This document shows, one piece after another, positions 6,142-17,936 of a stretch of 64,000 nucleotides of DNA (positions are counted from its first letter, which is position 1; every line of letters starts with the position of its first letter). The position numbers and the translations under genes were made by a program. The notes beneath the pieces were generated by a model. That model saw only the letters and a program-made list of their open reading frames with translations, did not search any database and was not told the DNA's origin. The stretch lies in NCBI RefSeq assembly GCF_012935695.1, contig NZ_CP052859.1, forward strand, positions 67,001 through 131,000, in the 5' to 3' direction. Source of the stretch: Pseudomonas sp. ADAK18. Lineage in GTDB: Bacteria > Pseudomonadota > Gammaproteobacteria > Pseudomonadales > Pseudomonadaceae.

Positions 6142-7821
6142 TCAATGGGGCGTAGCGGCTTCTGCGATCAGAATATCCTCAAAGAACGCGCCGACCGCTT
6201 CGGTGGGGTGACACAACTGGATTTCCAGAACCCAAACCATCTCGCTCGGCACGATCTCCAGTTCAGCCAGTTTCGTATCGCCAAACAACGCGTGGGGGAA
6301 ATCGGCGATACGGTGCCCGGCGAGATTGCGCTCCAGCTCCCAACCTTTTGCGGCCGCGCTGTGCTGAGCGAAATCGTACAGCTCCTGGCCAGTCAGCCCG
6401 CGGTGCCAGGCTGCGCGGGTTTCGTCGAATACTTCATGCAGCGCTTTGACGCACGCCTCGTATAGCGGGTGCTCGCCAAACACGAAGGTGTCGCCATAGT
6501 CGCCCTCGTAACCGTCCCACACCGGGCCGAGATCGACCACAGCAATATCGGTCACGCGTAACGTGCGCTGCGGATCGATACCTTGGCGTGGCGTGCGAAT
6601 GGTGTCTTCGCCAAACCGGATATAGGTCGGATGCCACGTGTGGGAGGCGCCCATGATCTGCAGCTGTTGATTGGCCATATCGATGGCTTCGGCTGTGGTC
6701 ATCCCGACGCGCAGTTGACTGGCAATCGACGTCAAGGCGCGTACCGACTGCTCGCGGGCCGCCAACATGCCGTCCAGTGAATAGCGCGGGCCGACTTTTT
6801 CCCAGACCGGATCCAGCGGTTTGGCTCCCGACGCGGGTTGCGACAGGCCACTGGGCACAAAGGCCTCAGCGACAAAACGGTGAGCCGACAGGCCCGCCGC
6901 AAGGCATTGTTCGCGGACAGTGCGGATCATTGAGCTGTTCCCGCAGGCGTAGACCTGGGCATCCGCCCAACGATGCCTCTGCCCTAGCGCAACCTGCTGC
7001 ACCTGGGCTTCGGAGGACAAGACCGCGTGCCAGGAAAAACGCGGGTGCGTGGTGATGGCCTGGTCGAGGAAGTCGCGGTCGTAAAAATCCGCCGGCCATG
7101 AGCCGCCCCAATACAACGTCACCTCGGCATGGCGCGCCAGCGCGCTCAGCAGCAGCGGCTTGACGCCTGCATAGCCGGTTCCGGTGGCGAACAGTACGAC
7201 CGGGCGATCATCATCGTGCTGCCAGGTACACGCGCCGAATGGGCCTTCCAGCGTGAGCGCATCGCCCACCTCCAGTGTCGCCAGCCTGCGCTCGGAGAAC
7301 AGCCCACCGCTGACCCGGCGAATATGAAACACCAGTTGGCCGTGATCCTGTGCCGGCAGATTGGCAATCGAGAAGCAGCGGCTATCGCCCTCATCGAGGC
7401 GAAACTTGACGTACTGACCGGCACGCACCTCAAGCGTCTCCAAGCTGTCGGGCTTGAGCACCAACTCGGTGATATCAACGCTCAGCGCGCGTTTACTCAA
7501 CACGTGTGCGGTGACTTCCAGCGGCGGTGTGTCCAACGACCATCCGGGGATTTCCAGGCGCATATCGGCGCAGGCATGGCTCTGGCACAGCAGCAATTCA
7601 TCGTCGGCGAGGGGATAAGAAGGGGCTGGGGCGCCTGGCAGCAGAATTTTGTCACGGTATTGCCCGCCCATGACTTTGACCTTGCACGAACCACAAGCAC
7701 CCCGACGGCACGAGAATGGCACCGACAGCCCACTGGCGAGCATGGCGTCGAGCAGCAACTCTTCACCGGCCTCGAAGGTTTTGCCCGAGGGCGACAATTC
7801 AATGACATGGCGTGTGTTCAT
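6142..7821 (-). CDS. Fusion: 2Fe-2S/FAD/NAD(P)H reductase joined to an M24 metallopeptidase-fold domain
   Basis: One uninterrupted 559-residue frame. Residues 1-95 are a plant-type 2Fe-2S ferredoxin with ligands C38, C43, C46 and C79 (CRRGACGSC...LLCQ). Residues 100-205 are an FAD domain (RCFSIANLP, LEGPFG). Residues 206-320 are a nucleotide domain (FATGTGYAGVKPLL, VYACGNSSMI). This order is that of the reductases serving Rieske oxygenases and of the CDP-glucoseen reductase type. A linker of about 25 residues leads to an M24 pita-bread domain (about 345-555). All five metal ligands appear present: D430 (VVDLGP), D441, H503 (AGHRI), E533 (LEIQL) and E548 (FFED). No oxygenase subunit lies nearby. 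The gene is divergent from a MocR regulator, 79 bases away. The substrate is unknown; M24 relatives include aminopeptidases, creatinases and ectoine hydrolases. Confidence 0.88.
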   Translation of the reverse strand: MNTRHVIELSPSGKTFEAGEELLLDAMLASGLSVPFSCRRGACGSCKVKVMGGQYRDKILLPGAPAPSYPLADDELLLCQSHACADMRLEIPGWSLDTPPLEVTAHVLSKRALSVDITELVLKPDSLETLEVRAGQYVKFRLDEGDSRCFSIANLPAQDHGQLVFHIRRVSGGLFSERRLATLEVGDALTLEGPFGACTWQHDDDRPVVLFATGTGYAGVKPLLLSALARHAEVTLYWGGSWPADFYDRDFLDQAITTHPRFSWHAVLSSEAQVQQVALGQRHRWADAQVYACGNSSMIRTVREQCLAAGLSAHRFVAEAFVPSGLSQPASGAKPLDPVWEKVGPRYSLDGMLAAREQSVRALTSIASQLRVGMTTAEAIDMANQQLQIMGASHTWHPTYIRFGEDTIRTPRQGIDPQRTLRVTDIAVVDLGPVWDGYEGDYGDTFVFGEHPLYEACVKALHEVFDETRAAWHRGLTGQELYDFAQHSAAAKGWELERNLAGHRIADFPHALFGDTKLAELEIVPSEMVWVLEIQLCHPTEAVGAFFEDILIAEAATPH

Positions 7822-7900
7822 AAAGACCTCGGGGGTGAATGAGGTTTGATTGTTGCGCTAGACTTAGGACCATTAGAACCTCCAGTTTTGGATATTTCAG
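7822..7900. promoter_or_regulatory. Divergent control region, fusion gene / MocR regulator
   Basis: Seventy-nine bases separate the two divergent start codons, the usual place for a MocR-type regulator to bind. GGACC-AT-TAGAACC at 7867-7880 and GGTCC at the regulator start are possible half-sites. No convincing -10/-35 pair was found by eye, so the assignment rests mainly on geometry. Confidence 0.4.
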
Positions 7901-9385
7901 ATGGTCCAGATGCGCAAATGGCAACTCCTGCTCAAGCTGGATGGTGCTGAGTCCCAAGCCTCGTATCGCAAGATCGTCGAAGGGCTGGTGAGCGCGATTA
8001 TCGACGGTCGCCTGCCGCCCGGGACGCTTTTGCCCGGGACCCGGGAAATGGCGCGGTTGCTCGACGTCAACCGCAAGACCGTGATCCTCGCCTATGAAGA
8101 AGCCATCACCAAGGGCTGGCTGGTCAGCGAACAGCGTCGAGGCACTTTTGTCAGCGCGCAGTTGGCAGCCGCAGCCACTGCCCGAAGTGAACCGCAGTCT
8201 TTCGCGTTAGAGCTTCAGGCACAACCTGCCGTTGCGTATTTTGCCCAAAACGACCAGATGACCGCCTTGCAACATCGGCCCGAGGTCCTGTTCTTCGATA
8301 ACGGCGCCTGTGACCACCGTTTGCTGCCCCAAGCCCTGTTGCATCGCTACTACCGCAGAGCCCTGCGCAGCAGTTTTGCCTCCAATACCGTGCGCCACGG
8401 TAGCGAGGGCACCAGTTATGAACTGCGTAAAGCCCTGGCCGAAATGCTGCGCAACAATCGCAGCCTGGCCGTGGGTGCCGAACATATTTGCCTGACCCAG
8501 GGTGTCCAGATGTCGCTGTACCTGACCGCCAGTGCGCTGCTCAAACCCGGTGACGTGGTGCTGGTAGAGCGCCTGAGCTACCCGCCGGCGTGGGAGATAT
8601 TCCGCAAATTGGGCGCTCGCCTCGTGACCGTGGACATGGACAGCGAAGGCTGCCGGGTCGATCACATCGACGAGCTGTGCCGGCTCCACAACGTCCGGAT
8701 GATCTATGTCACTCCCCATCACCAGTTTCCGACCACCGTCAGCCTGCACGCCGAACGCCGGCAACAATTGCTGGCACTGGCCAGGCAGCACGACTTTTGC
8801 GTGATCGAGGAAGACTACGACCATGAATATCACTTTGACGGCCGGCCCTACGCACCCCTCGCCAGCGACAGCACGCAGCGGCATGTGATCTATATCGGCT
8901 CATTGTCCAAATCGCTGGGGTCGACCTACCGCTGCAGTTACGTGGTCGCGCCGACCGATGTGATCGAAGTGCTCAACCGCAACGCTGCGCTGGTCTTGGG
9001 ACAGGGCGATGCCGTCACGCAGCAGATGCTGGCGGACCTGATCAATAACGGTGAGCTGAAGAAACACCTGCGGCGCGTGACGAAGGAATATCGCCTGCGT
9101 CGGGAAACGCTGCAAAAGTGCTTGCTGGAAGGGTTTGGGGAGCGGATTTCAATTCGCGAGCCGGAAGGCGGATTGGCGCTTTGGGTGCGGTTTGAGGCTG
9201 GGGTCGATGTTGATCAACTGGTGCTGCGGGCGTTGGAATATGGGTTGGTGGTGCGTAGCGGTCGACTGTTTTCTCCTGTGGATGAAGCGGAGAACGCGTT
9301 GCGACTGGGGTTTGCTTCGTTGAATCGGGAGGAACTTCGCGAGGCTGCGCGACGGTTGGTGCGGGCGGCGAATCAGCTCCAATAA
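7901..9385 (+). CDS. MocR/PdxR-family transcriptional regulator (GntR helix-turn-helix plus aminotransferase fold)
   Basis: A 494-residue regulator. Residues 20-85 are a GntR-type winged helix (GRLPPGTLLPGTREMARLLD, then VNRKTV). A linker leads to a fold-type I aminotransferase domain. The PLP lysine is K337 in YIGSLSKSLG, and upstream VTPHHQFPTTVS and IEEDYDHEYHFDGRP are typical of the family. These proteins bind PLP or a PLP-amino-compound adduct and control adjacent genes, often for amine or amino acid catabolism. Because it is divergent from the reductase-M24 fusion, it probably controls that gene. An alternative start lies at codon 4; the first ATG is kept because GGA lies about 11 bases upstream. 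Confidence 0.92.
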   Translation: MVQMRKWQLLLKLDGAESQASYRKIVEGLVSAIIDGRLPPGTLLPGTREMARLLDVNRKTVILAYEEAITKGWLVSEQRRGTFVSAQLAAAATARSEPQSFALELQAQPAVAYFAQNDQMTALQHRPEVLFFDNGACDHRLLPQALLHRYYRRALRSSFASNTVRHGSEGTSYELRKALAEMLRNNRSLAVGAEHICLTQGVQMSLYLTASALLKPGDVVLVERLSYPPAWEIFRKLGARLVTVDMDSEGCRVDHIDELCRLHNVRMIYVTPHHQFPTTVSLHAERRQQLLALARQHDFCVIEEDYDHEYHFDGRPYAPLASDSTQRHVIYIGSLSKSLGSTYRCSYVVAPTDVIEVLNRNAALVLGQGDAVTQQMLADLINNGELKKHLRRVTKEYRLRRETLQKCLLEGFGERISIREPEGGLALWVRFEAGVDVDQLVLRALEYGLVVRSGRLFSPVDEAENALRLGFASLNREELREAARRLVRAANQLQ

Positions 9386-11655: not shown

Positions 11656-12624
11656 CTACTCGGGAATCGATCCTCGTGCTATTGCTTTCCGTAAACTGTT
11701 AGACAGAGCCCGGTCCCCCTGTGCTTCAGCGAGGAGTTCCATGAGCGACAAATTTCCTGAGATTTCAATCTCATCTTTCTTCCGTAGAAGTAGCTCCTTT
11801 AGTTCTGCAGCCCAGCCCAGCTCTTCTAGTGCTCGGACCTGCCACCACGTCTCTCCCTGGTCGGTAGATTCTCGGTATGCGGCCTTGAGTAAATCTTCGA
11901 TCAGCTTTTCTTCCGTGAACTCTCGGATGTAGAAGGCCGCAGAGAACCAATTTTCATTCTGTAATGAGTCATTAATACCCTGAATATATTTCTGTGCGGC
12001 CTCTAAGCGCCGGCCGATGGCAAGGAGTGCCCTTGCGTGTTGTTCGTGATCATCACCGTCGCTAAATTCGGCTAGATGATCATCAATGATTTCCTCTGGA
12101 ACAAGATCCGGTCGTTGTTGCAGGCTGCCTCGTAAGTAAAAAATCGTATCTGCTGAAGCCCCACCGCTGATGGCCTGCTCGACGTATTTGTCACGGAGCT
12201 CTTTGTTGCCGATGACATCGTAGTGAACTGCTAACGAATCAAACTGTTTTGTTTCCCGATATATCTCTGCAATGCTCGTAATCAACTCTACATCGAGCGC
12301 ATCTCTGTCTGACCTTTTCTCCCGTTTCGCCTCTGAGGTAGCCCTTTCGGTTGCCACAATTCTCAGCCAATCATTCCGATAAAGGATCACTTGATCGGCA
12401 TCTAGCTTCCGATCGAACCCACCGCGAATTTGGGTTTCCCGATGACAGTCAAAGCACAGGGTCGAGAGATTTGAGGATAGATTGTTGGACGGATCTTCAT
12501 CGACATGATGAATCTGAACTGGTTTTCCCTTCGTTCGACACACGCAGCAGGTTCGGTCAGACAAGAACAACACCTGCGCAGCAACATCAGTTGGGATCGG
12601 CGTTCGTTTTTTCTTTCTTGTCAT
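11656..12624 (-). CDS. HNH endonuclease-domain protein with C-terminal helical repeats
   Basis: A 322-residue protein. Residues 23-65 form an HNH motif: zinc-type cysteines CCVC (26-29), the catalytic-type pair IHH (38-40), NL at 52-53 and the second zinc pair CFDCH (57-61). The rest is alpha-helical with TPR-like spacing (for example DSLAVHYDVIGNKELRDKY). This suggests a recognition or scaffold domain rather than a second nuclease. Its location in an ssrA island suggests a role against foreign DNA, but that is inference. It has no partner gene in the island and no strong ribosome-binding site before the ATG. The frame is intact. Confidence 0.8.
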   Translation of the reverse strand: MTRKKKRTPIPTDVAAQVLFLSDRTCCVCRTKGKPVQIHHVDEDPSNNLSSNLSTLCFDCHRETQIRGGFDRKLDADQVILYRNDWLRIVATERATSEAKREKRSDRDALDVELITSIAEIYRETKQFDSLAVHYDVIGNKELRDKYVEQAISGGASADTIFYLRGSLQQRPDLVPEEIIDDHLAEFSDGDDHEQHARALLAIGRRLEAAQKYIQGINDSLQNENWFSAAFYIREFTEEKLIEDLLKAAYRESTDQGETWWQVRALEELGWAAELKELLLRKKDEIEISGNLSLMELLAEAQGDRALSNSLRKAIARGSIPE

Positions 12625-13028
12625 TGGTGGAGTTCACTTTAAAGATCGTGTGTCAAAGCCGCCTGCAGCGCGGTACCCGCTTTTGATCATAGAGGAGGGG
12701 ACATGTGGGTGGTTATCTTCTTGCACTGATCCAAAAAAGGCCACTGAAAGACATCGCATCGGTGCGGTAACTCACCATCCTATCGGGTGTTGGGGCTGCC
12801 GGGGCCCCTGACGATTTGATTCCCATACGGGGTCGGAAACCCGCGGGATTCTGTTAATGGCAGGGGGGCCAACTTACTGAAATTTCAACGTTGAAATTGA
12901 AACAGGAAATCGAGGAAATTGGGGTCAGACCACGGTTGCGTACGACGAGGGCAAGCGGCTCATAAAAAGTGATGGTTCGACCCAAATTTCCTTTTTGGCG
13001 GGTTCCCCGTCGGTTCGTTATTTTTGTG
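12625..13028. other. Gene-free stretch with a perfect palindrome and a short inverted-repeat element
   Basis: No coding frame here is convincing. AATTTCAACGTTGAAATT (12881-12898) is a perfect 18-base palindrome. GGAAATTGGGGTC (12914-12926) and GACCCAAATTTCC (12979-12991) form a 12-of-13 inverted repeat enclosing about 50 bases. The second pair resembles the ends of small non-autonomous elements carrying GGGGTCAGACC termini. Confidence 0.5.
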
Positions 13029-13316
13029 TCAGGGAGCTGTCCTACCCACAGTTTCTAAATCTGCTGTTGGCACAAGAATGTCCAGTGCGCGCGCCACTAG
13101 CAATTCACCCAAGGCGCTCAATTGCTGGGTTGCAAGAAGCTTATAGCGATGGACACCATCAAGCTCAAAAGCCAGATCAGCAGTGATAGCGTTCAGCGAC
13201 GCGAGTGTCTCGCAGGCCTGTACGAGCAGGGTTTCGGTGTCGATGTTTTTAGCGATACAGAAGATGTTGGTACCGGACGGGCTCGTGCATGGTGGATTGG
13301 GGCTGATCTTTTTCAT
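13029..13316 (-). CDS. Small Pseudomonas protein, DUF3077/DUF6124-like
   Basis: A 95-residue protein beginning MKKISPNPP. The body has the pattern NIDTETLLVQACETLASLNA and later LSALGELLVARALD that I associate with the DUF3077/DUF6124 family of short pseudomonad proteins of unknown role. AAGGAG lies seven bases before the ATG. That Shine-Dalgarno is complementary to part of a structured RNA encoded directly upstream (13324-13440), so translation is probably controlled by antisense pairing. It sits inside the ssrA island. Confidence 0.65.
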   Translation of the reverse strand: MKKISPNPPCTSPSGTNIFCIAKNIDTETLLVQACETLASLNAITADLAFELDGVHRYKLLATQQLSALGELLVARALDILVPTADLETVGRTAP

Positions 13317-13334
13317 GACTGCGCTCCTTGATTG

Positions 13335-13440
13335 GTGGAGTCGCCAGACATCGCTGCTAAACGAAAAGGGTGGCGACTATGCGCGGGTTAGCAGACCAGG
13401 AATCAAGGAACCCAGCGCACCCGAAGGTGCCCCACACATA
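13335..13440 (-). ncRNA. C4-like antisense RNA upstream of the DUF3077/DUF6124-like gene
   Basis: On the minus strand a short stem with a UUCG loop (13417-13430) is followed by TTCCTTGATT (13410-13401), complementary to the downstream Shine-Dalgarno segment AATCAAGGAG (13333-13324) over ten pairs with one G-U. A second segment, CTGCTAA (13394-13388), is complementary to TTAGCAG (13360-13354). An AGTCGCCA/TGGCGACT hairpin lies between them. Two antisense boxes matched to two downstream target boxes, one over the ribosome-binding site, is the layout of the phage P1/P7 C4 RNA. The family name is from memory; the pairings are read directly. Confidence 0.6.
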
Positions 13441-13591
13441 GCCGCCATAACGTGGCCAAGCGGATGCTGATGCATCGCTTGAACGGATGGTGGCATTGCA
13501 TGCCTTGATATTAACCGAGCTGCTAAACCCGGTCGCTGATTTTGCAGCGACCTTTCAAGGCTAGTCGTGTCGTTTGAGCAAGACCAGTTCA

Positions 13592-14173
13592 TCAATGGCG
13601 CGACGTTTTGAAGGAAATATCCGGCACCCTATTCGGCGGTGTCTTTTCAGAAGCCCAGAAACAACAAAACCCGCACAAGGCGGGTTTTGGTGGTGCTTCA
13701 TATTTGGGGGCCGGGGTGATCTGAATTGATTGCATAACTTTATGATTTTTATGGATTGTTTTTTTTATTGGAATACCTTTTGGAATACCATTCGCGAATT
13801 TTCTTAAATTCCCGCCCTTACGTCGATCAACTCTCAATTCCACAGTTGTACTTCGCGATCTCGTTTTTGAGCGGAATCTAAGGCTTCTGCTAGCGATTGC
13901 TGGCGTGTACAAGCCTGCTCGTAAACCTGTTATGCAAAGGTCGCGGTCATGTGGCCAAAACACCAATGTCCGACCAATGTGCTTCTGTAAGCTATCCATG
14001 ATGGCAAAAAGCTGTGACTTTGGCTTTACCCATGCTTTGCCAGTGGATAAGGTGATAGGTATCGTAAGTTGATTGGTCGCAATACCCCAGGGATGGCTCT
14101 CCATAGGCGCAGGTTTTTGCCTGGCTCTTAGTGTCAGTTTCCCTCTGATTCCTTCCAGTTTATTTGTCGCCAT
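13592..14173 (-). CDS. Doubtful hypothetical frame
   Basis: A 193-codon open frame with no ribosome-binding site before its ATG. Its final third runs through the terminator and att-like copy at 13666-13730, where the reading is clearly not protein-like. Nothing in the N-terminal part is recognisable, though IGRTLVFWPHDRDL looks less random than most shadow frames. It may be a gene whose end was replaced when DNA inserted, or chance. Listed because no better annotation exists for 13731-14224. Confidence 0.2.
   Translation of the reverse strand: MATNKLEGIRGKLTLRARQKPAPMESHPWGIATNQLTIPITLSTGKAWVKPKSQLFAIMDSLQKHIGRTLVFWPHDRDLCITGLRAGLYTPAIASRSLRFRSKTRSRSTTVELRVDRRKGGNLRKFANGIPKGIPIKKTIHKNHKVMQSIQITPAPKYEAPPKPALCGFCCFWASEKTPPNRVPDISFKTSRH
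13666..13688. terminator. Strong bidirectional terminator next to the inner att-like copy
   Basis: A perfect 9-bp stem AAAACCCGC/GCGGGTTTT encloses a five-base loop. A/T runs on both flanks make it usable in either direction. Its position next to the inner ssrA-like copy parallels the terminators at the two outer copies. Confidence 0.8.
13707..13725 (+). repeat. Inner att-like site resembling the ssrA 3' end
   Basis: GGGGCCGGGGTGATCTGAA matches GGAGCCGGGGGGATTTGAA of the ssrA T-arm region (17542-17560) at 16 of 19 positions, in the same orientation. Together with the adjacent terminator and the GGAATACC repeats, it probably marks the left end of the most recently inserted unit. Confidence 0.6.
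13768..13790 (+). repeat. Paired GGAATACC repeat, left copy (arm-type site)
   Basis: TTGGAATACC occurs twice in 23 bases. The whole 23-base unit recurs at 17404-17426 with one mismatch, just upstream of the P4-type integrase gene. Direct arm sites near both ends of an element are expected for this integrase family. Confidence 0.65.
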
Positions 14174-14224
14174 ATTTTATTTTGGTAGGCCCATGTTACC
14201 GCGGGCTGCAAGGGAGTGTTGTGA

Positions 14225-15922
14225 ATGAATGAGTTGGTTGAGGCCTTGCTGGCCGCCGTTCCCGCCGATGGTTCTAGTATTGGCAATCAGTCGCTGCTAG
14301 AACGGATCAGAATTCAGTTCCCCCATTTAACTGATGAGTTTTATTGGGAAACACGTGACGCGCTGATTGATCAGCGGATGCTGCAGGCCGGGAAAGGTCG
14401 TGGCGGCTCCGTGCGGCGCTCCAACGTCGAAGTTCCACCATCAAGTGCTTGGGTTCACTTTTTGCGTAGCTATGGGCCGTCATCGACCAACCTAGCGATG
14501 TTCGATGAGTATGTTTCGAGGGCACTGGCACAGGCAAGGGTCAAGCCGATTAGCCTATCAGCCCCTTTTTTAGAGGATATGGTTAGACACATTGAATCCA
14601 AGGCGCTGGGGTCTATCTTAATCGCCGGAACTGCTGGTGATGGTAAGACGTACCACTGCCGTGCCTTGTGGGAGCGTATTGGTGGGAATCCCAATGCTTG
14701 GGCCGCCAAAGGTAACGTGAAAGAGTTGCATCTGGCGGATGGGCGTTTGGCTATCTTTATCAAGGATCTTTCCGAGCTCAATGGCGAGGAGAGCGATTTG
14801 CCATTGCAACGACTTGAAAGGTCGGTACTAGAGGGCGATGACTCTGAGGTCGTGATCCTTGCTGCAAACCATGGGCAAATTCTTGATCGTCTCCGTGATT
14901 TAGGTCGTCGCCAAGAGCGAGATCACCCACTTCGCAAACCGCTGCAAGAGCGCTTCTTACAGGCCGGCCCGGCTCCTGATCGCCTGGCGGTGTTCGATCT
15001 CAGCCGCTCTACTAGCCGCAAAACGTTAGACGAGGTGGCTATGGCTGTGGCAGGGCATCCTGAATGGGACAACTGCAAACGCTGCGCACTTCAGACTGAA
15101 GATAAAATTTGTCCCATCGACGAGAATCGCCGCAGGCTTTTGGGTGAGTCAGATCATGGCCAGCTCTCTCGCCGCTTGGGCGATTTGGTTGAAATTGCCA
15201 GGCACAACGGGCTGCACCTCCCTATCCGTGACTTACTTGCGCTTTGTTCGAATATGATCCTCGGTTGTTCCGATGCCAAGCAGGCAAAAGACAATCTGCT
15301 GACTTGCGCGGATGTCGCGAAGATTCAGGGAGGAGGGGATCTTGGCAAAGCCAGTATCTATTCTAATGCTTTTGGGGCCAATCTCCTTAAGCGAAGAACT
15401 TCTGACCGCCCCATCTTCAAGGCGATGTCCAGCTTTGGAGTGGGGGATGAGTCCACCAATGCTGCTGATGGGTTGCTGGTTTATGGCAAGGATGACTCTC
15501 GGCTGCAAGCCGATTTCGGCCGCTTGGTCGCGAGCGATCCGATCTACGGTGCGACGGCCGCCTTTCGCGCTGCCCAAGACGCCTATTTGGAAGGGTATGA
15601 GGGCTCCCGTTTGGAAGGGGGGGCCTACGAGTTCCTTACAATGCTCGAGGATCAGCGACGCAGGCTTTTTTTCACACTTCCGGATGGCGAGAGAGGCTAT
15701 CCAACGCGCCTCCACCTTAATCGGTTACTACCTCACGGAGATTCAGCGTCTGACCGAGCAGGAACCGGTGTGCCGGGTGAGGGAAGAGGCGGACCGGCTG
15801 CTGCGCTGGCTGCAGGCCAAAGAGTGGAAGCGCTTCAGTATTGGAGAGCTGAATCGCAACGGTCCCCGATTTGCCCGCAAGAGCAGCCGTCATGCCGCCA
15901 AGCTGTTGGTCGAGTTGATTGA
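14225..15922 (+). pseudogene. P-loop ATPase with N-terminal winged helix, 3' truncated
   Basis: The first roughly 497 codons look genuine. Residues 3-66 are a winged helix of the kind seen at the front of restriction and defence proteins (DEFYWETRDALI, then GKGRGGSVRR). Residues 135-142 are a Walker A, GTAGDGKT. VVILAANHG (208-216) fits a Walker B/sensor segment, and C283, C286 and C295 may bind a metal. GGGAG lies eight bases before the ATG. From about 15,700 the frame runs out of phase through the remnant of another gene, so its last 70 or so residues are artefactual. The P-loop plus cysteine layout recalls DptF-like phosphorothioation-linked proteins, but I cannot confirm that. Its partner genes are missing, so it is probably non-functional. 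Confidence 0.7.
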
Positions 15923-15980
15923 TCATCAGTGGCTGATCACCGACGGTCATACCTTCGAGGTGCGTCATGTTCAATCTTGA
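15690..15980 (+). pseudogene. 3' remnant of a DUF3987-like gene
   Basis: From about 15,690 a different frame reads IGYYLTEIQRLTEQEP and continues with a winged-helix-like tail to a TGA at 15978. This resembles the C-terminal end of DUF3987 (YfjI-like) proteins of integrative elements. No start and no upstream domain exist; the ATPase gene abuts it. It is a deletion-junction remnant. Confidence 0.5.
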
Positions 15981-16321
15981 TGAAGCGCTGCGCCACCACC
16001 TGGCTCAGCGCCAAAAGGAGCCGAAAGAGCGGTTTGTCGCCGTGACTGTCGCAACTTTGTCGCCATGCTTAAAGCCAGGCAAGGCCAGGGGGGGGCGCCG
16101 GTGTCGCCGATGTCGCTACCACCCATAAAGCTATCGCCTCGGCGACTGACATCATTCAATGGTTGAAAGAGGAGGGCGCACACCTCTACGTCACCGATAA
16201 CAGGCTGTGTTTTCGTCCGACGGATTGGGGTCAGGTCTCCATCGTGAATGCGCACTGGCAGGCCCTTTTACTTGATCTGGCTGCAGTCGACCAGGAACAG
16301 AGAAATGGCTCGGGTCGGTAA
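15967..16321 (+). pseudogene. Frameshifted small gene of an integrative element
   Basis: An ATG at 15967 opens MFNLDEALRHHLAQRQKEP and goes out of frame at a run of eight Gs (about 16085-16092). The alternative frame then continues through DIIQWLKEEGAHLYVTDNRL to a stop at 16321. A one-base change in the G run would restore one reading frame. It overlaps the end of the DUF3987 remnant, as in operons of integrative elements. Confidence 0.45.
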
Positions 16322-16842
16322 GCGATCTGGGCGTAATTTCGGCTTCGGCCGCCAGCTCAGCTATGCCGGACTGCAAGCCCTGAAAGATCTGTTTGGCGAT
16401 GGCCATTTTGGTACCGTCAAAGCCCATAGCGATCGCTGGCAGGCCTTCGTGCAATGGTGTCGATCCGAGGAGGGGCCGGGACTCAATGACGCGCGACAGA
16501 TCAACCGCGAGATCCTCATGCGGTACGCCGTTCACATGCGCGAGCAGGTTGAGCAGGGCAACGTTGGCATCGCCACCGCTCAGAACCGCCTGTCTAGTGT
16601 CAACCGCACGATGGCCGCGCTGCGCGGTGATCAATACGTCAAAATTCCCAGTCCGAGCAAGGCGCTAGGTTTTCAGCGCTCAAGCGTGCGCAGTGAGGCC
16701 CCGCAAGGCCAAGACCGTGTTCAGGTCGAGCTGATTGTGCAAGCACTGTCAGATCGTCAGTAGTCGAGGGTGAGTGCCATTGTGCTCTTAGCTCGTGTGA
16801 CTGGTATGCGCCTGCGTGAGGCAATCCTGGCGGACCTTCACT
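16305..16842 (+). pseudogene. Tyrosine integrase of the integrative-element type, disrupted
   Basis: The frame from ATG 16305 encodes an N-terminal SAM-like core-binding domain (YAGLQALKDLFGDGHFGTV, QINREILMRYAVHMREQV). An in-frame amber codon at 16761-16763 interrupts it. The same frame then resumes with VLLARVTGMRLREAILADL, in which GMRLRE is the first arginine box of the catalytic domain, and breaks off near 16,835-16,842. Beyond that point the DNA belongs to the opposite-strand P4-type integrase. The remaining catalytic residues, including the tyrosine, are absent, so it cannot recombine. Confidence 0.75.
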
Positions 16843-17351
16843 GTCTCGAGGCTGCCTTTGGCCTCGATTGGACGAAGCAGTGCGATGACCATTGGTGCAG
16901 TGATTTTCGAGAGTGGAGTTGTTTTCAGATCTGGAAATACATGCAGCGTGAGAGATCGCCAAATGTCTTCGGCGTACGCGGGGGTGACGGAGTCCTTTTT
17001 CAGCTCAAACCAAGCGGTGGCCACGTTCTCAAACGTGTGTTCCGTTTCTGCTCGTTTGGCTTCCATAAGTGTGTTGCGTTGCGCTTTGGGGTCGATGCCT
17101 TGAGCCAGCAATTCGCGCGCTTCAACCACTTTCTTCCTGGCGTTCGCTAGTGAGAGCTCTGGGTACGTGCCTAGACCCATATTGATGCGGTTTTTGGTTA
17201 CTGGTTCGCGGTAGTTGAAGTTCCACAGCATCGAGCCATTGCTCCTGACCCGGAGCTGAAGACCATCTCCATCACTGAGGACGTAATCCTTGTCTTTTGC
17301 CTTGGCTGCCTTGAGCTGACGGTCAGTGAGACGGAGGGCTGGAGCAGGCAT
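16788..17351 (-). pseudogene. P4-type integrase, 3' truncated
   Basis: The start is intact: MPAPALRLTDRQLKAAKAKD opens an arm-type DNA-binding domain (DUF4102-like, about 1-85), with the signature GLQLRVRSNG and MGLGTYPELSLANAR. The core-binding domain follows (ENVATAWFELKK, VFPDLKTTPLSKIT). Homology ends after GSLETVK near 16,840, where the opposite-strand integrase begins, and the last 10 or so codons are out of homology. The whole catalytic domain is lost. It sits 188 bases from ssrA, the usual place for an integrase targeting that gene. Confidence 0.85.
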
Positions 17352-17373
17352 GAGAGCTACCTCTAACACCGTT

Positions 17374-17487: not shown

Positions 17488-17560
17488 TGGATTTCAGGCA
17501 CAAAAAAAGACGTCCGTGGACGTCTTTAGATGATGAAATGGTGGAGCCGGGGGGATTTGA
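17488..17560 (+). repeat. Island right end: ssrA terminator and 3' end
   Basis: The terminator stem GACGTCC...GGACGTC (17506-17527) and the first bases of the tmRNA 3' end are repeated in the same orientation at 11466-11540. This copy joins the functional ssrA, so it is the right attachment junction. The A/T flanks of the hairpin make it the ssrA terminator as well. Confidence 0.8.
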
Positions 17561-17936
17561 ACCCCCGTCCGCCAGTACTCCGCTGTCGGTACTACATGCG
17601 TAGCCGTTTCTATTAAGTTAACCCTCAGCGACCCGAAGGGCAGGGTGCTTTGGGCGAGTTGTGTAAGTTTTAGCCGCTTCGTCCACAACGTACTGCACGG
17701 CGATTCTGTTCTATATGACAATCACTTTGGGTTTACAGACATCCCCTGGTGATTGCTGGACCCGAAGGTACCAGAAGCTCAGGATCTAAAGCTGCTTACG
17801 CAGCGAGAGAGAATTCCTGGCCGTAGGTTTCGTCATTGGCAACTATAAGTAGTTGCAACAGTGGATTTACGAGTTCTGTTACCAACTCGGCATGCACCTA
17901 AAGTTTCGCGACCGGCGTCGAATCCTAAACGGCCCC
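17539..17936 (-). ncRNA. ssrA: Transfer-messenger RNA (tmRNA)
   Basis: The minus strand begins GGGGCCGTTTAGGATTCGAC at 17936 and ends with the tRNA-like 3' half and CCA at 17539, 398 bases in all. The tag frame starts with the resume codon GCC at 17840 and reads ANDETYGQEFSLAA, then TAA (17798-17796), a typical Pseudomonas degradation tag. With SmpB, tmRNA frees stalled ribosomes and marks the unfinished proteins for proteases. smpB is in this window at 24105-24587. The 3' end is intact despite the island, so insertion preserved function. Confidence 0.97.

Follow-up and report, generated by a model that had tools for sequence, protein, structure and literature searches.

The ectoine hydrolase EutD is an M24-type enzyme, and reductases of the BenC type normally hand electrons to a protein partner. 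Among described relatives, the DMSP lyase DddP is M24-related and contains mainly iron (PMC4108388), and the extradiol dioxygenases NicX and HpdF, the former dependent on one Fe(II), are reported to be homologous to metallo-dependent aminopeptidases (PMC7356986). EnuR, whose PLP lysine is Lys302, is described as a MocR/GabR-type repressor of ectoine catabolic clusters holding eutD (PMC8739950), and a survey of MocR regulons describes redox-enzyme regulons without an assigned pathway (PMC5320631). A conserved reductase-M24 fusion beside a likely amine-sensing switch, as found here in Pseudomonas sp. ADAK18, may represent a type of NADH-driven enzyme that is still uncharacterised.

The window, by which we mean the whole analysed stretch of 64,000 nucleotides, covers C1:67001-131000 of a 6.47 Mb genome in a single contig, and the nearest named homologues of the fusion come from Pseudomonas. 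The fusion CDS (6142..7821, minus strand) starts with ATG and encodes 559 aa without internal stops. Its four Pfam domains, all on the same strand and all above the gathering score, follow each other in the order Fer2 (the 2Fe-2S ferredoxin domain, residues 8-83, 7573..7800, with C38, C43, C46 and C79; 51.8 bits against a cut-off of 21), FAD_binding_6 (residues 106-199, 7225..7506; 39.3 bits against 21.1), NAD_binding_1 (residues 211-303, 6913..7191; 31.0 bits against 22) and Peptidase_M24 (residues 351-552, 6166..6771; 78.4 bits against 23). The last, a pita-bread domain, carries the metal ligands D430, D441, H503, E533 and E548, as well as H510 and the motif W396-H397-P398. This single open reading frame confirms the in-frame joining of a reductase to an M24 domain proposed in the initial annotation, which had also named the cysteines and metal ligands correctly, all of them being invariant in 78 of 78 aligned sequences. 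Between the halves lies a variable linker (residues 323-339, 6805..6855, minus strand) that is probably flexible and has no invariant position among its 17 columns; in the predicted structure of the whole fusion (pTM 0.56) the pLDDT is below 50 at residues 327-346.

A search of a 5.8-billion-protein set returned 473 homologues of the fusion at E 0.001; all four domains are present in 117 of the best 120 of these, the remaining three being without one reductase domain. A second protein search, with the M24 part of a Comamonas homologue as the scored region, gave 239 matches, the best 120 of which all hold M24 plus at least one reductase domain, and a few matches of 331-423 aa on short contigs are probably fragments. 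Scanning named genomes yielded at least 79 fusion loci, with at least 55 open copies in the Pseudomonas clade and, among the listed loci, 22 open copies in Achromobacter, Variovorax, Herbaspirillum, Roseateles, Comamonas and Paraburkholderia. The chain stays open through the M24 domain in 77 of the at least 79 loci, and the frameshift or stop that had been considered for residues 320-345 is absent; stops occur in just three of these translations, at residue 553 or later, where the end coordinate was set beyond the end of the gene. Set against these open loci and against the four domains recurring in the database homologues, the idea that an assembly or frameshift artefact joined two adjacent genes has a negligible probability. 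The expectation that several genomes would share the fusion with intact ligands is likewise borne out by the 77 open loci, in which the ligands are invariant.

The copy of Variovorax sp. E3 (L158, 10001-11664) is split between two frames, with the switch around query residue 378, which suggests a disrupted copy or a sequencing error. Pseudomonas sp. K2I15 has a full fusion (L093) and, on another contig, a partial second copy in the form of an M24-only fragment (L159, 10001-10480; query 386-545, 82% identity). A locus labelled Pantoea sp. Ap-967 (L126) branches inside the Pseudomonas fusion clade in the tree, and its record is probably misnamed.

Full-length fusions were found in 53 of 398 congeneric genomes sampled, the window's own included. 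The class sample (E 1e-40, best three candidates per genome) has the fusion in one of 369 genomes, the window's own, and the phylum sample, queried with the M24 half, in three of 398, all of the same genus, the other two being full length in the congeneric sample. Since the named-genome scan gave at least 23 Burkholderiales loci where the class sample finds a single genome, sampling matters. With such low and uneven counts, the fusion is an accessory gene of patchy distribution. Plasmid records gave 394 matches, none covering more than 80% of the fusion query. The architecture is already in the databases, under names that include 'M24 family metallopeptidase', 'NAD(P)H dependent flavin oxidoreductase family protein' and 'CDP-4-dehydro-6-deoxyglucose reductase', and none of the names of the listed homologues reports a tested function; among the papers listed in searches of the open-licence PMC literature, no title or abstract opening concerns it.

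For the analysis of conservation, the window sequence was aligned with those of 77 of the at least 79 loci (78 sequences; L158 and L159 were dropped before the count). Of its 107 invariant columns, 65 lie among the 214 of the M24 half and 42 among the 322 of the reductase, and they include C38, C43, C46, C79, D430, D441, H503, H510, E533, E548 and W396-H397-P398-T399. Between the window and seven close homologues, dN/dS ranges from 0.09 to 0.19 in the reductase and from 0.03 to 0.10 in M24, the M24 value being the lower one in six of the seven pairs (the exception is L083); judged from these sequences, the fusion is under purifying selection. In a maximum-likelihood tree built from 34 of the 78 fusions together with 35 solo M24 proteins, i.e., relatives without a reductase, the fusions all fall to the same side of a single branch (support 100/99), near which long branches meet. 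Such a split fits a single origin of the fusion and its subsequent retention across Pseudomonas and Burkholderiales.

The reductase half shows the CxxxxCxxC...C 2Fe-2S motif with FAD and NAD domains typical of BenC-like oxygenase reductases, and scores 118.4 bits with the BenC equivalog model, against a cut-off of 430. The solved reductases that match it best, in sequence and in fold, are GcoB, the benzoate and carbazole dioxygenase reductases and T4moF, all of which serve oxygenases. In the fold search the flavin reductase Fre and NqrF match almost as well, so that the fold leaves the class of electron acceptor unfixed. The fold lists (best 50) also include the reductase-fused CYP116B46 and flavohaemoglobin, matched via their reductase parts; with the whole-fusion model, the best 50 rows per list are reductase matches only, none of them to M24. 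No Rieske oxygenase gene adjoins the fusion in the window, and the earlier statement that none is nearby holds for the genome, where the nearest of nine Rieske matches (C1:44340-44594) is about 28.6 kb away and outside the window. A separate reductase-like match (C1:41573-42538) lies close to it.

The M24 half has the family's pita-bread fold and all five ligands, in the order D, D, H, E, E, in 78 of 78 fusions, and the second-sphere H510 is kept alongside them. It is remote from methionine aminopeptidase (MetAP), prolidase and aminopeptidase P (APP), with a best PDB profile match of 43.8 bits, and has a WHP..RFG signature of its own. The NCBIfam model for type I methionine aminopeptidase (TIGR00500) gives 29.3 bits for the whole protein and 32.4 bits for the M24 half, against a cut-off of 171.35. 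Profile and multiple alignments, all at the level of sequence, place a residue other than histidine at the position of MetAP His79 and APP His243: no column from 404 to 418 has His in more than two of 78 fusions or in more than one of 26 solo proteins (left out of the solo set were the too distant L171 and L173-L176, the fusions L161-L163, and identical rows). Negligible activity is reported to be left in MetAP and APP mutated at His79 and His243, respectively (PMC2814137), and APP His243 is named among the essential residues (PMC5774706). The absence of this conserved catalytic histidine makes peptidase activity of the M24 half doubtful, and the fusion M24 half is probably not a peptidase. 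The "M24 metallopeptidase fold" of the initial annotation thus stands as a fold, whereas the peptidase activity implied by it is in doubt for the fusions and the compared solo proteins alike. Creatinase, DddP and EutD are absent from the best 50 fold matches of the M24 half alone, which excludes none of them.

The solo M24 proteins (∼220 aa, from Pseudomonas and others, and apparently uncharacterised), of which the closer ones are 37-45% identical to the fusion M24, belong to the same subfamily but differ in having no reductase and other neighbors. Across 22 solo loci, each covered over 7.5-13 kb, no relative of the fusion reductase turns up at E 1e-3. Because the loss of the His79 equivalent is common to the solo proteins, a change of chemistry may predate the fusion; the loss is then no proof of redox use and no argument for a link to the reductase. 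The fusion and solo sets share 51 conserved positions, and 16 are fixed only in the fusions, several of them beside the ligand D441: there, Y438 stands against H in 24 of 26 solo proteins, Y442 against A in 18 of 26 and D444 (Y in one fusion) against A in 21 of 26. Elsewhere, D406 is N in 25 of 26. Placed next to a ligand of the metals, tyrosines would suit the transfer of electrons. No pathway emerged from the context of the 22 solo loci. In four of them (L044 5767-6789, L181 5797-6819, L189 821-1854 and L038 5496-5846; checked with Pfam for L044 only) a GGACT/AIG2-like gene of ∼115 aa adjoins the solo M24 gene, the two being a candidate functional pair, and an AraC/DJ-1 regulator lies next to solo M24 in L036 and L179.

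Divergent to the fusion, a gene at 7901..9385 (plus strand) encodes a MocR-type regulator of 494 aa with a GntR HTH and an aminotransferase-like domain, and with K337 as candidate PLP lysine by analogy with Lys302 of EnuR (PMC8739950). A gene of this type divergently adjoins the fusion in 75 of at least 79 loci by tblastn, its alignment being partial in L158 and in two frames in L082. The tblastn match is absent at four listed loci, namely L139, L156, L148 and the fragment L159; the contigs of L139 and L156 stop about 460 bases upstream of the fusion. The gap between the two genes is 76-81 nt in Pseudomonas, with 90 nt in two loci. Although the Burkholderiales MocRs are only 25-31% identical to that of the window, K337 is a lysine in 76 of 76 MocR sequences, the window included. 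R468, at first considered as a possible carboxylate-binding residue, is conserved in 56 of the 76, the remaining 20 having V, L or M there. The divergent MocR noted initially is therefore real and conserved, and its hint at an amine or amino-acid link gains support from the kept lysine; such a partner points to an amine or amino-acid-like inducer.

A candidate MocR operator (7867..7909, minus strand) consists of two boxes inverted relative to each other, CTGGACCAT and ATGGTCC, and of an internal CTGGA. By eye, the Pseudomonas intergenic regions share the conserved boxes CTGGACCAT, CTGGAGG and ATGG(T/G)CC, and most Burkholderiales ones have ATGGCY...AGCCAT, L148 being without it. The predicted MocR start codon (ATGGTCCAG at 7901; a further ATG follows at 7910) lies partly within the outer half-site, so that part of this conservation may be coding. 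The long Pseudomonas pattern occurs once in the genome with up to three mismatches, and so does the spaced inverted repeat, so that the regulon may consist of the fusion and MocR pair alone.

Apart from this regulator, the surroundings of the fusion vary. Among 77 gene-called loci (window included; L113, L133 and L159 were left uncalled), the MocR cluster lies at most three genes from the fusion in 66 and the next commonest cluster in 22, the latter in related strains with a common insertion site. The cassette thus sits in unlike contexts with MocR as the only neighbor conserved throughout. As to whether both neighbors named at the outset are conserved, the answer is positive for MocR and negative for the cupin, which we rejected as part of the unit since L082 and L083 are the only loci besides the window where it keeps its place. 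Possible pathway genes noted in individual genomes (hydroxyproline-epimerase-like in L031, DHDPS-like in L032/L033 and polyamine-binding-like in L034, by eye) were likewise not conserved. Further along the window, an integrase-like ORF (16788-17369, minus strand, 193 aa, Arm-DNA-bind_3 and Phage_int_M, perhaps truncated) adjoins a tmRNA gene (17539-17936, minus strand), and the scanned ORFs at 11656-16763 have no Pfam family above cut-off, with one weak HNH_3 match (E 0.097); the arrangement resembles the remains of an integrative element at ssrA. Within it, at 14225-15980 (plus strand), a 565-aa ORF seems by eye to switch frame near 15.7 kb, and the ORF at 15312-15980, in another frame, goes on with coding-like character. 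The pattern suggests that a gene has been frameshifted.

Our favored reading, held tentatively, is that the fusion is a self-sufficient NADH-dependent redox enzyme in a MocR-switched cassette, its electron module and metal-site domain lying in one chain as in self-sufficient reductase-fused oxygenases. Electrons would pass from NADH to FAD and the 2Fe-2S cluster within the intact oxygenase-reductase-type module and from there to the M24 metal site, where the metals, probably iron, would activate O2 or reduce an N-O or N-N bond instead of hydrolyzing a peptide. The substrate may be a small amino-acid- or amine-like compound; MocR would sense it, or its product, via PLP and switch on the single enzyme gene, the two genes forming a catabolic or detoxification cassette. 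In favor of this reading are the invariant cofactor and metal residues of the open loci, the low dN/dS, the single origin that fits the tree, the best reductase matches serving oxygenases, the fold matches CYP116B46 and flavohaemoglobin, whose reductase parts feed a catalytic redox centre, the missing peptidase histidine, the fusion-specific residues around D441, and DddP (PMC4108388) and NicX (PMC7356986) as precedents. The initial annotation came close to this in suggesting that the reductase may act on the M24 substrate; the stronger version favored here is that electrons may feed the M24 metals. Several points count against redox use of the M24 site. The D-D-H-E-E set is that of hydrolases, and docking of the cluster to the metals is only putative given the variable, poorly predicted linker and the pTM of the model. 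Moreover, as the closest M24 relatives have no fused or nearby reductase of this kind, M24 chemistry need not require electrons.

This last point also favors a bifunctional enzyme, a serious if unlikely competitor, in which M24 would act without redox chemistry, as a hydrolase like EutD or a lyase like DddP, and the reductase would carry out a separate NADH-dependent step, either on the compound that M24 acts on or on what M24 makes of it. The pairing of MocR with M24 is known from EnuR and the eutD clusters (PMC8739950), and DddP is an M24 relative with non-peptidase chemistry (PMC4108388). However, the conserved histidine at the His79 place is missing, and reductases of this type normally feed a protein partner, for which no other conserved gene adjoins the fusion. 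Iron as the main metal in DddP (PMC4108388) would also suit an M24 half working as an Fe(II) hydrolase whose reductase merely keeps, or returns, the iron in the ferrous state in air, and a constant tether with a variable linker fits occasional contact over contact in every turnover. Still, some 320 residues of NADH/FAD/2Fe-2S machinery are a costly means of upkeep. We know of no other M24 enzyme that needs it, and regard this explanation as improbable.

Quite improbable, too, is a reductase working for a separate oxygenase whose gene lies elsewhere, with M24 as a docking or regulatory module. The lack of an adjoining Rieske oxygenase and the nine Rieske matches in the genome speak for it, but the invariance of all M24 ligands and the larger invariant share of the M24 half are unlike a scaffold, and the cassette occurs in unlike contexts with MocR alone conserved throughout.

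If the favored reading of a redox-active M24 site is correct, a large hydrolase/lyase fold gains new chemistry, as HD-domain and amidohydrolase folds have done. More tentatively than the reading itself, we suggest that the fusion could then found a class of M24-fold oxygenases or N-O/N-N reductases, in which a D-D-H-E-E dimetal site of hydrolase type has been turned to redox catalysis and is powered in cis by the NADH/FAD/2Fe-2S reductase, while the solo proteins may use separate reductases. 'M24 family metallopeptidase' and 'NAD(P)H dependent flavin oxidoreductase' would in that case be misnomers for the fusions. As the enzyme and its regulator make up a unit of two genes, the inducer of MocR offers a route to the substrate, which makes this orphan enzyme directly testable, and even under the rival explanations the fusion represents a conserved, apparently uncharacterised architecture of Pseudomonas and Burkholderiales.

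Compared with known systems, BenC, GcoB, T4moF and CARDO-R are separate subunits of oxygenase systems, whereas the reductase described here continues into a C-terminal M24 domain. MetAP, prolidase and aminopeptidase P are pita-bread relatives, from which the fusion differs by its own signature and by the missing His79/His243 equivalent. DddP resembles the fusion in being M24-related, and the eutD clusters in being often under MocR control, but these enzymes are a lyase and a hydrolase, not redox enzymes, and the cited sections on them describe no reductase fusion (PMC4108388, PMC8739950). CYP116B P450s and flavohaemoglobin, like the fusion, hold the electron path from NAD(P)H to the catalyst in one chain; their catalytic domains contain haem, whereas that of the fusion would be a non-haem M24 metal site.
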